DNA from: Bacteroidota bacterium
Lineage (GTDB): Bacteria; Bacteroidota; Bacteroidia; AKYH767-A; 2013-40CM-41-45
Length of the DNA stretch: 64,000 nt
NCBI GenBank assembly: GCA_004295015.1
Contig: SHNE01000049.1
Span: 1 to 64,000, forward strand
Direction of reading: 5' to 3'
In this document: positions 30,162-33,242 of the stretch, piece by piece
Layout: each line of letters opens with the position of its first letter
Position numbering within the stretch: the first letter of the stretch is position 1
Program-made: the position numbers and the translations under genes
Notes under the pieces: model-generated
What the model was told of the DNA's origin: nothing
Database searches by the model: none
Seen by the model: only the letters and a program-made list of their open reading frames with translations

Positions 30162-30713
30162 TTATAATGGCGAACCTACAGGCTTTGCACAGTCATGTCC
30201 TGGTTCTCCATGTGCCGGATTTAACTTTCCGCCGGTGCCTGCCGGTGCCTTGTCATTCGGAATTGACATTACGGGAGCAGGTGTGGCGGTGGGTGTGGTT
30301 GTAGAAGGATTGGCTTGAATCTGAACAGGACTTGAACTTGGTGTTGAAGGTTGAATTTGTTGAGCAGCGCCTGTTTTTGCCGAATTCAGTGGTGCTCCCA
30401 CTGCAATAGCACAATCATGTCCGGGTTCACCATGAGCAGGGTTTAAGGCCTGACCTTGATTTGCATTTACAGGTATGATACTATTCGATTGTTGAACTGC
30501 TCCTTGTCCTCCCTGAACTTGTCCTGAAGATATACCCTCTTGTCCTGCCAGAACCTGCGCGTCTGAATTCACTTCTCCGTTGGGAGTATCTAAAGATGCC
30601 TGTAATTCCTGTACAGGTGCTTCGTCCATAGATTCAGAGTCTGACTTGTTGTCGGAGCAAGCAAAGGAGACAATGAAAAGTGATGATAATAAATAGTGAG
30701 AAATACGTTTCAT
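30162..30713 (-). CDS. Low-complexity lipoprotein with two HGEPGHDC motifs
   Basis: This 183-residue protein has a lipoprotein signal (lipobox VSFAC, Cys19). Most of the chain is Gln/Ser/Thr/Pro-rich and looks disordered. Two copies of one 20-residue motif stand out: residues 90-109 and 164-183, the latter forming the exact C-terminus. Each reads L-N-P-A-H-G-E-P-G-H-D-C-A, then V-G-x-P-L. The two His and the Cys in each copy (His94, His99, Cys101; His168, His173, Cys175) could bind a metal or heme. I recall NPPHGQPGHRC-type versions in other Bacteroidota, without assigned function. Location is probably outer-membrane anchored. Confidence 0.75.
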   Translation of the reverse strand: MKRISHYLLSSLFIVSFACSDNKSDSESMDEAPVQELQASLDTPNGEVNSDAQVLAGQEGISSGQVQGGQGAVQQSNSIIPVNANQGQALNPAHGEPGHDCAIAVGAPLNSAKTGAAQQIQPSTPSSSPVQIQANPSTTTPTATPAPVMSIPNDKAPAGTGGKLNPAHGEPGHDCAKPVGSPL

Positions 30714-30869: not shown

Positions 30870-33242
30870 TTAAAATGGATATCCGATTGCCAGGTTTGGA
30901 ACTATGTCTCCTATAACAAACTTTTGATTCGGGTAGACCCAGCGTTCACCTAACTGCAAAGCCGGGTCCCTAAGCTTGACGGCTGCATCTAGGCGCAGAA
31001 TAAAAAACGAAAAATTAAACCGAAATCCAATACCGCCTCCAAGAGCCATTTCTTTGAACATATTATTAAATTCGAATTCAGCCCCCGGTCTTGACAGGTC
31101 TTCGTTTCTTGTCCAAATATTACCTGCGTCAAGAAAAGCCGCCCCTTCCAGCAAAGCGCCATCAAGAACTTTTATAAGAAATGATCTGTATTCAATATTC
31201 GCTTCAATTTTAATATCCCCGCTTTGTTCAATGATATCAAAGCCTCTTTGATACGATCCCGGTCCGAGAGTTCTTGCATTCCATGCACGGATACTATTTG
31301 CTCCACCCGAAAAAAAACTTTTTTCAAATGGCAATGCACTGGAATTGCCAAAAGGAAATCCTATCCCTGATGCAATTCGATAAACCATGGTATTGTTCTT
31401 GTCGAGTACCTGATGAAAACTGACATCGATATCCGGTTTTATATATTGGGAAAAAGGTATTCCGAAAATTTTATAGCTGCCCTTATCATCTGTCTTCAGG
31501 TTTAAAGCAGGTGCAAGTCCACGAAGAATTAATCCGGATAATTCCAGATTTCCTCTGACATAGAAAAAGTCTTTGTTGCTTAGTCCTTGTTGACTGTTTA
31601 AGATCCAGGTGAATCGTCCGCTTGGAATCAAATGGGTATCGTAACTGTAACTGAGTCGCGGGTCGTTGAGACTATCAAGACGGGCTTGAAATCCCGGGGA
31701 TGGATTTACACTTACGGAATTTACGTTGATCGGAAAAACCAGCATCCTCTGGGTTCGTGATACTTGCCAGTTATATCCGAAGGATGCGTTTAATAAAGAA
31801 CGTTTGTAATCAGGCCGATCCTGAAAATTAAATCCTGCAGTAAGTATACTTCTGGGGTTAAAATATCGGGAAGTGTTTTTTGTGATAAATCGGGGGAGGA
31901 GGAATTTCTTAAACGTAAGCGTAACCTCAGGTCCGATTTCATAGGTATTGAAGAGTAAAAACTTATTGTCCTCAACGCTGTCGCTAAGGTTCGGAAGAGC
32001 CTCCAGTGCTCCTTTTACTTTTACTTCTAAGACCTCGGCTCCCTTCAATAGATTCTTGTTTCTCCAACCTACGGATCCGGCAATTCCAAGATTTCCACCT
32101 GTATTGGCAATCTCAGCCTCAGTGGTAAAATCCTGCTTGTCCATTGGTGTAAGGAGAATAATTACATCCAGCAGGTATTCCTTTTGTTCATTGTCTCTCG
32201 GTACTTCCTCAAATTGAATGTTGATGAATTTAAAGATATTCAAATCCTGAAGTCGTTTATATGTGTAGTCCAGATCCCTTTGAAGATATCTGTCGCCCCG
32301 GTTAATGAATATGTTGTTCACCAAAACTTCGTCTCGTAAGGCTCTTTCCTTATTTGCTGATAGAATATGAATTCCCTTTACAATTGTTGTATCTACCGGA
32401 ATTGTTCCTTCAGGATCACGCGGATTATAATCGGTACGTACATAAATATTTTGGAGGTTAAATGCATGATGAATCGTGACAGGCTTGTAGCCGTTTGTTG
32501 CTGGGTCTACATTTTCATTGATGCTGTTAACATAGAGGGAAATATCTACCTGATGACTTTGCAATGAGCTGTCGACTTCGTAGGTGATATAGTTTTTTCC
32601 GAAATAATAAAAGCCCCGGTCCTTCAATTCTGAAGTAATTCTTTCTCTTTCGGAATTTAATAATTCTTCATCGTAGTGATTACCTGGTTTTATCAGTGAA
32701 GTATTTTTGATGAAGTCTATGAAAAATTGAATGCTGGGATCCTTAGTGGAAAACTGCACATTCCTTATCGTGTAAGGTTGGTTATATGTTAGTTTATAAT
32801 AAACTCTCGCTTTCTTTTTTCGATAGCTTATTGAATCTTCCACCACAGAATGAAAATATCCTTTTTGATAAAGCAGGAGTCTCAGTTGATTTTTTGATCT
32901 TTCAGTCTGATTGCTATCAAGTATAGCCGGTTCTTCACCTATACTTTTCAACCAATTTTTAAATTTTGTTTCCTTTCCCTGATTGCCCAGGTTGTACATG
33001 CTCAGGTGAAATTGAAACAATCCAAGAATTTTCCTGTTGGGTCTTTGCTTGAGCAATGAATAGAGGCGTTCCTTTTCAATTCCGCTCGAATCGGTAATAA
33101 TCGTATTGCGCATTAACAAATGAGAGCCTTGCGGAATCCTTTTTGTGGGATTACAGGCATAAAACATGCCCACAAGGAGCAAAAGCAAAATAAATTTAAA
33201 TTGATATGTTGATGCCAATGGAAAGAATCTGATTCGTCGCAA
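30870..33242 (-). CDS. TamA/BamA-like Omp85 outer membrane lipoprotein
   Basis: This 790-residue protein has a lipobox-like signal (LLLLLVGMFYACNP, Cys30). POTRA-like repeats cover about residues 30-390 (YYKLTYNQPYTIRNVQF; RGDRYLQRDLDYTYKRLQDLNIFKFINIQFEE). A C-terminal beta barrel of the bacterial surface antigen family follows (GGNLGIAGSVGWRNKNL; FFSGGANSIRAWNARTLGPGSY with the RxWxxRxLGPG-like motif; ALGGGIGFRFNFSFFILRLDAAV). It probably inserts or exports proteins in the outer membrane. It is TamA-like rather than the main BamA because POTRA number is low and a lipobox is present. Confidence 0.88.
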   Translation of the reverse strand: MRRIRFFPLASTYQFKFILLLLLVGMFYACNPTKRIPQGSHLLMRNTIITDSSGIEKERLYSLLKQRPNRKILGLFQFHLSMYNLGNQGKETKFKNWLKSIGEEPAILDSNQTERSKNQLRLLLYQKGYFHSVVEDSISYRKKKARVYYKLTYNQPYTIRNVQFSTKDPSIQFFIDFIKNTSLIKPGNHYDEELLNSERERITSELKDRGFYYFGKNYITYEVDSSLQSHQVDISLYVNSINENVDPATNGYKPVTIHHAFNLQNIYVRTDYNPRDPEGTIPVDTTIVKGIHILSANKERALRDEVLVNNIFINRGDRYLQRDLDYTYKRLQDLNIFKFINIQFEEVPRDNEQKEYLLDVIILLTPMDKQDFTTEAEIANTGGNLGIAGSVGWRNKNLLKGAEVLEVKVKGALEALPNLSDSVEDNKFLLFNTYEIGPEVTLTFKKFLLPRFITKNTSRYFNPRSILTAGFNFQDRPDYKRSLLNASFGYNWQVSRTQRMLVFPINVNSVSVNPSPGFQARLDSLNDPRLSYSYDTHLIPSGRFTWILNSQQGLSNKDFFYVRGNLELSGLILRGLAPALNLKTDDKGSYKIFGIPFSQYIKPDIDVSFHQVLDKNNTMVYRIASGIGFPFGNSSALPFEKSFFSGGANSIRAWNARTLGPGSYQRGFDIIEQSGDIKIEANIEYRSFLIKVLDGALLEGAAFLDAGNIWTRNEDLSRPGAEFEFNNMFKEMALGGGIGFRFNFSFFILRLDAAVKLRDPALQLGERWVYPNQKFVIGDIVPNLAIGYPF

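Follow-up and report, generated by a model that had tools for sequence, protein, structure and literature searches.

The window, a stretch of 64,000 nucleotides from a genome of the phylum Bacteroidota, encodes an exported lipoprotein with two copies of a short loop that presents two His and one Cys in the order H-x4-H-x-C (Table 1). We put the chance at roughly one in two that this protein and its relatives are lipid-anchored, multi-site metal-binding loop proteins, most likely for copper, which serve as a trap or buffer and maybe hand their metal to a receptor. That the loops bind metal, and that this metal is copper, we infer from comparative sequence analysis. A metal site is the best reading because both His and the Cys are constant and fixed in their spacing, the loop is predicted to close on itself, one divergent copy has exchanged the Cys for His, and there is a tie to HMA domains; copper is favoured on account of CopZ-like and HMA-bearing partners. 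In the genomes searched here, the motif defines a family without a name, whose members were found only in the class to which the window's genome belongs.

Table 1. Layout of the lipoprotein gene, in positions of the window and residues of the encoded protein
Feature	Positions	Strand	Remarks
Whole lipoprotein gene	30162..30713	(-)	183 aa, ATG start, stop codon included; two H-x4-H-x-C loops
Signal peptide and lipobox, residues 1-19	30657..30713	(-)	MKRISHYLLSSLFIVSFAC, to-be-lipidated C19 last; read from sequence
Gln/Ser/Glu-rich linker, residues 20-89	30447..30656	(-)	AlphaFold2 pLDDT 48-62 per ten-residue block
Loop 1, residues 90-109	30387..30446	(-)	LNPAHGEPGHDCAIAVGAPL; putative ligands H94, H99, C101; sequence and AlphaFold2
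Pro/Ser/Thr-rich linker separating the loops, residues 110-163	30225..30386	(-)	pLDDT 48-55 in most blocks
Loop 2, residues 164-183	30165..30224	(-)	LNPAHGEPGHDCAKPVGSPL; putative ligands H168, H173, C175; C-terminus; sequence and AlphaFold2

Both loops of the window protein fit the pattern LNPAHGEPGHDCAxxVG(A/S)PL and have the stretch NPAHGEPGHDC in common. A previous sequence-only reading had noticed this 20-residue motif at residues 90-109 and 164-183, and it does occur twice, the second copy ending exactly at the C-terminus. Across the 19 aligned codons from the N to the L of the two loops, six are identical, ten synonymous and three residue-changing, which argues that selection has preserved the repeat as protein and that the DNA was not duplicated recently; by this codon comparison, the loops are old copies under selection on the protein. 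A search for HGxPGHxC in the 3.86-Mb genome returned just these two matches, and the reversed control pattern returned none. Cys residues are found at positions 19, 101 and 175 and nowhere else in the protein. The first of them ends the lipobox, S-F-A-C19, which was read from the sequence, and is almost invariant in an alignment of 45 proteins.

In an AlphaFold2 model of the whole protein (45-sequence alignment, pTM 0.27), the motif blocks reach pLDDT values of 79-85 (79-80 in loop 1, 82-85 in loop 2), and all other parts lie at 48-62. The linker at residues 20-89 is probably disordered, and the earlier description of a lipoprotein that is disordered outside its motifs is supported by the low confidence there. 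When a 30-residue segment with loop 1 was modelled in isolation (69 sequences), the mean pLDDT was 85, with 93 in the core and a pTM of 0.46; residues 6 and 24 are bridged in this model and its ends are closed. Each loop is thus predicted to be a closed, self-folding mini-fold. Foldseek searches against the PDB gave no match for the whole-protein or the loop model, and VIA-align gave none either.

Members of the family are exported proteins with at least two copies of the pattern NPxHGxxxHxCxxxVGxPL, which the window protein fits with two. To avoid circularity, copies in homologs were located by seven scaffold residues only, of which at least five had to be present. H-x4-H-x-C occurs in 355 of the 355 copies located in this way (337 at 7/7, 18 at 6/7), a count that retains some bias, as many loci came through one intact HGxPGHxC copy and the scan with HG[EQM]PGH[RD]C would miss proteins without H or C in all of their motifs; the other copies of each protein and the profile searches were free to vary at both positions. 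Variable His and Cys positions among homologs, which had been named beforehand as the finding that would speak against a ligand-binding motif, were hence not encountered in these copies. An earlier set gave the same picture, with H, H and C in 288 of 288 copies; 20 segments at 4/7 did not have them and were judged to be chance matches or overlaps. The column table of 112 proteins was picked on H....H.C and is no evidence for ligand constancy.

These 112 distinct proteins, at least one of which (L026) is truncated by a stop codon and another of which (L087) is an N-terminally incomplete call, comprise 50 with two copies, 60 with three and two with four. Counted over 139 frames, some from close relatives, the figures are 64, 70 and 4, along with a single one-copy frame. 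The description of the motif as duplicated is therefore right for the window protein, with two copies as the usual minimum in a family that ranges from two to four. A fixed C-terminal position, also claimed previously, turned out to be common and not fixed: the last motif Cys lies 8-12 residues from the end in 104 of the 112 proteins and 14-52 residues from it in the other eight. Between motifs, the spacing ranges from 35 to 88 residues and the linker length differs among homologs. What stands between the two His is variable as well (PG, PN, EN, TN, SG, DG, KG, AF, PW). After residue 25, no His is present outside the motifs in 105/112 proteins, and 89/112 have a single non-motif Cys, consistent with the lipobox. 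In one genome (G366), a TGA interrupts the third copy in the assembled sequence.

The most informative departure is a divergent one-copy member (L138 = L194, in genome G753), which carries an additional degenerate copy, NPPHGAPGHVH, that is not among the 355. It has lost the VGxPL tail and reads H-x4-H-x-H, with the Cys replaced by His, a change of the kind that is typical of metal sites. This copy also bears on the possibility that the Cys has a redox or covalent role, in which its thiol would pair into disulfides inside one protein or across proteins, or attach to a cofactor or to the cell surface. Such a role would suit the presence of one Cys per copy, with one other Cys, fitting the lipobox, in the 89 proteins mentioned above. 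However, the G753 copy has lost its Cys and kept both His, the two conserved His per copy are unneeded for a disulfide, and the 60 three-copy proteins have an odd number of motif Cys, with which full internal pairing is impossible. We consider a redox or covalent role very unlikely.

A second alternative, that the loops are docking peptides for a protein partner at the outer membrane and that their His and Cys are held by contact or packing and not by metal, would be compatible with several of these observations: the loop folds alone in the prediction without metal, multivalent copies on a flexible tether fit such a role, and the constancy of H/H/C is matched at the Asn, Pro and Gly positions, though copies were selected on some of these. 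Still, no partner is common to the lineages, and both the Cys-to-His change and the free choice of residues that separate the two His are more in keeping with ligands, which makes docking rather improbable.

The same divergent genome gives rise to the only heme-related link. The next gene downstream of the motif gene here is ccmB (Pfam CcmB, above cutoff), accompanied by a cytochrome-c-assembly-like gene that falls short of its Pfam cutoff. As His and Cys are both able to ligate heme, the loops might bind heme or serve cytochrome maturation. This gene order is nevertheless confined to one locus: no CcmB-like neighbor was found by blastp in 81 neighborhoods, nor in the other 39 of the 40 loci sampled from f27 and elsewhere. 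In addition, the window protein has no CxxCH, as its three Cys positions show. Of all readings weighed here, heme is the one we consider least probable. The original suggestion of metal, heme or covalent-partner binding has thus fared unevenly. Its metal part gains from the constancy of H/H/C in 355/355 copies, from the Cys-to-His copy and from the receptor link with CopZ-type and HMA domains described below, whereas its heme part is less favored, and the three-copy proteins with their odd number of Cys speak against obligatory internal disulfides as a form of its covalent part.

No significant match to the window protein or its motif was found in Pfam, NCBIfam or the PDB, and 45 members of the family yielded scattered weak matches to unrelated families, with all displayed scores below cutoff. 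Two such NCBIfam families can be dismissed, both being far under cutoff: Riean_0653, which matches in the signal-peptide region, and CCGSCS, which matches in linker stretches. HYC_CC_PP (NF047658) was neither among the NCBIfam matches of the window motif protein nor among the best 25 of 31 NCBIfam families for the 45 homologs. A cupredoxin domain was likewise not detected, either as a Pfam match in the window protein or as a fold match in the PDB; the only cupredoxin-related name among the Pfam matches of the 45 homologs was SoxE_N, in one member (E 0.004). Searches of the open-licence PMC literature with motif strings returned unrelated papers only. The earlier statement that no function has been described agrees with these family-model and literature searches. 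Envelope metal-binding proteins as such are known; the repeated H-x4-H-x-C loop is, as far as we searched, undescribed.

A profile search of a 395-genome sample of the phylum matched 33 genomes, 32 of the 98 from the window's class (its own genome counted) and one of the 297 from other classes. The latter match (G430) was rejected, as its frame runs antisense to another open one. Within the class, 62/296 genomes matched in the order of G382, 14/248 in the order of G441 and 3/42 in the window's own order (G000, G022, G024), where neither G001, from the same genus as the window genome, nor nine genomes from its family gave a match. At the DNA level, the pattern matched in eight of 61 relatives, five of them true (the window's own genome, G022, G024, G044 and G048) and three chance frames without scaffold residues (G018, G031 and G036). 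A contig scan with HG[EQM]PGH[RD]C, from which carriers were taken for 80 of 455 relatives, found the motif among the matches listed in Flavobacterium, Chryseobacterium, Pedobacter, Xanthomarina and Formosa, and further in Brumimicrobium, Lacihabitans, Rufibacter and Sediminibacterium. This patchy distribution suggests repeated loss or transfer. Several other origins and relatives were tried and rejected. A phage or plasmid gene found no backing in tblastn searches, with no match at E <= 0.1 in 50,697 phage and 72,556 plasmid records; 33 stretches from viral contigs fitted the peptide pattern and none encoded a relative; and a supposed HxH sister family had a single match in 395 genomes, inside a 56-residue frame.

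Genes near the loci were called by a simple script without a gene finder. Long common gene order was seen within genera or close groups (79 of 81 loci scored; L087 and L112 were left out, their motif gene having been missed by the gene caller). The order found in the window, pnp, rpsO, accD, aldolase, motif gene and Omp85, is not maintained elsewhere and does not represent a conserved operon; single neighbors recur, with an aldolase near L080 (Bacteroidota MAG) and pnp near L048 (Flavobacteriales MAG). Among the matches listed, no neighbor recurs widely, the most common being an ABC-ATPase cluster in nine name groups and the next commonest occurring in four. A shared operator was also sought in 31 aligned Flavobacterium upstream regions; a TATATTTG stretch is present, with no clear operator. 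The Omp85/POTRA gene upstream of the lipoprotein gene in the window (30870-33242, minus strand) is TamL-like and has a lipobox-like N-terminus, YACNP. TamL of Bacteroidota is said to have been described in a published study.

One family, f27, stands apart (the label f27/g45 contains Chryseobacterium, f28/g47 contains Flavobacterium). Four of its loci (L068, L110, L117 and L120) show a kinase and a regulator followed by the motif gene, a Cys/His-rich protein and a TonB-dependent receptor. The Cys/His-rich protein has about 120 residues, is exported and begins 3-22 nt downstream of the motif gene, and the receptor carries N-terminal, CopZ-like HMA domains. Twenty loci were sampled from the 40 f27 genomes positive for the motif (L159-L178; L170 and L068 are one and the same contig). 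In 20/20, the motif gene has both partners, Cys/His-rich protein and HMA-TonB receptor, beside it, in two gene orders: 13 with the motif gene first and the kinase/regulator pair upstream, and seven (g80, g86) with the motif gene last and the pair absent from the stretch. Three of the loci with the latter order have the HMA part called as a frame separate from the barrel. Within four genes of the motif gene, these two partners are the only ones present in all 20 loci, and the kinase/regulator pair is present in 13. The linkage is absent in 20/20 loci from other families and in the remaining non-f27 loci among the matches listed; within 10 kb, the Cloacibacterium locus L107 has no such link. The Cys/His-rich protein of f27 ends in PP and has no family match. 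Homology to HYC_CC_PP is not supported, as there is no profile similarity despite the like position and the terminal PP.

The f27 neighbors are, by their family matches, probable genes of a copper-uptake system. The HMA domain is above the Pfam cutoff in the L068 receptor, and the model TIGR00003, 'copper ion binding protein', is passed by the L110 receptor (64.8, cutoff 62); L068 stays far below it (21.3). HMA domains also serve other metals, and MerP-type models match too, so that the metal might be a different soft one. A related receptor with an AACCNL(S/A)E(S/A)F plug occurs in eight further genomes, where its direct neighbors are a small protein rich in Cys and an HMA protein encoded separately. 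Of four such small Cys-rich proteins scanned, three pass HYC_CC_PP, and that of the window genome itself scores 27.9 at a cutoff of 28. In G425, the gene two places upstream of the related receptor module encodes a copper-type P-ATPase. The window's motif gene is unlinked to the receptor, which sits on another contig: there (G000, C7:46193-48085; L229), at a distance from the motif gene, three genes in a row encode a HYC_CC_PP-like protein, a TonB-dependent receptor whose plug reads AACCNLSE, and an HMA protein.

Across genomes of the class, the receptor (E <= 1e-120) occurs in 27/32 motif-bearing and 28/66 motif-free genomes (p = 8e-5, relatedness ignored), and the difference is seen also without f27 (19/24 and 28/66; p = 0.004, relatedness again ignored). 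Within f26, no such association was found (5/13 versus 3/12, p = 0.67). Among 17 further motif-bearing genomes, the receptor was present at E <= 1e-60 in 11 and absent in six, and five motif-positive genomes without a receptor in the first search again had none at E <= 1e-60. With so many carriers lacking the receptor, and with no association in f26, the receptor is no general requirement.

These gaps fit a further alternative, in which the loops bind zinc or another borderline metal and the protein buffers metal in the envelope in a general way, without any tie to copper or the receptor, the Chryseobacterium link being a local recruitment. A His2Cys ligand set is as suitable for zinc as for copper, no metal gene is linked to the motif gene in the other sampled families, and at E <= 1e-60 the receptor is missing from 11 of 22 motif-bearing genomes (of which five were picked as earlier negatives). 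On the other hand, the only conserved partners match CopZ-type and HMA models, and no zinc gene adjoins the motif gene among the annotated neighbors. We regard a zinc buffer as unlikely, and copper remains our preferred metal.

As to its location, PMC5080379 gives C-x-K-(D/E)2 as the optimal surface-export signal in Capnocytophaga and SDDFE as the consensus in F. johnsoniae. Like the known LES surface lipoproteins covered there, the motif proteins have a lipobox, and C-x-K-(D/E)2 follows in 9/20 f27 members; unlike them, the strict signal is found in just 9/112 proteins of the main set, and the window protein continues C-S-D-N-K-S after its lipobox, a partial match to surface-export signals. 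Looser signals are more frequent in the main set, with C-x-K-(D/E) in 54/112 proteins and at least two acidic residues at positions +2 to +6 in 58/112. No lipobox is present in L015, L130 and L044. Surface exposure of the motif lipoprotein thus appears plausible for the Chryseobacterium group.

Under the preferred copper reading, the mechanism could be envisaged as follows. The exported, lipid-anchored and mostly disordered lipoprotein would display two (in relatives up to four) self-folding loops, each of which would offer its H-x4-H-x-C ligands to one metal ion, most likely copper. With the lipid anchor and the flexible linkers, several sites would sweep the volume around the anchor. As a tethered trap or buffer with multiple sites, the protein would work at the outer membrane. 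Where an HMA-TonB receptor is present, the metal may be passed on to it. A bolder version, which is tentative and in our view rather doubtful, sees in the loop a new compact, repeatable His2Cys unit, two to four of which on a tether form a cell-bound 'fishing line' metallophore for copper. If true, a tether of Bacteroidia would load HMA-equipped TonB receptors with copper, in place of a diffusible chalkophore.

A 19-residue loop that folds alone would also make a useful minimal metal-binding module. The family spans several orders of its class without an above-cutoff match in the family and structure libraries searched; its constant H/H/C looks like a metal site, and its only constant f27 partners are heavy-metal genes. 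Zinc knuckles and other short Cys/His metal loops are comparable in being small, repeatable and built on few fixed Cys/His ligands. In contrast to these, the motif loop has one Cys and two His, in the order H-x4-H-x-C, and it matches nothing in Pfam, nor in the PDB when compared by sequence or with Foldseek. The HYC_CC_PP/TonB/HMA module of Bacteroidota is related in that the f27 neighbor is an HMA-bearing version of its receptor, whereas the motif lipoprotein is no part of this module outside f27. A search of the open-licence PMC literature for HYC_CC_PP found no paper.

Bacterial copper acquisition is still described as poorly characterized (PMC12914433). A functional parallel is provided by the TonB-dependent copper transporters OprC/CrtA together with azurin, which share with our proposal the idea of an exported copper protein that serves a TonB receptor in the outer membrane. 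Secreted azurin has been proposed to deliver copper to OprC, a contact that PMC8610252 did not confirm, and in a flavobacterium, Bizionia argentinensis, an OprC-like copper receptor has been assigned from sequence (PMC11213822). Unlike OprC/CrtA, the motif lipoprotein is no receptor, and unlike azurin, it has no cupredoxin match; moreover, the f27-linked receptor has HMA domains and an AACCNLSE plug, whereas the copper site of OprC is CxxxM-HxM (PMC8610252). At the level of the site itself, the likeness is greater: type-1 copper sites consist of two His, one Cys and one Met, as given in PMC8610252, a ligand set close to the His2Cys of the loop.
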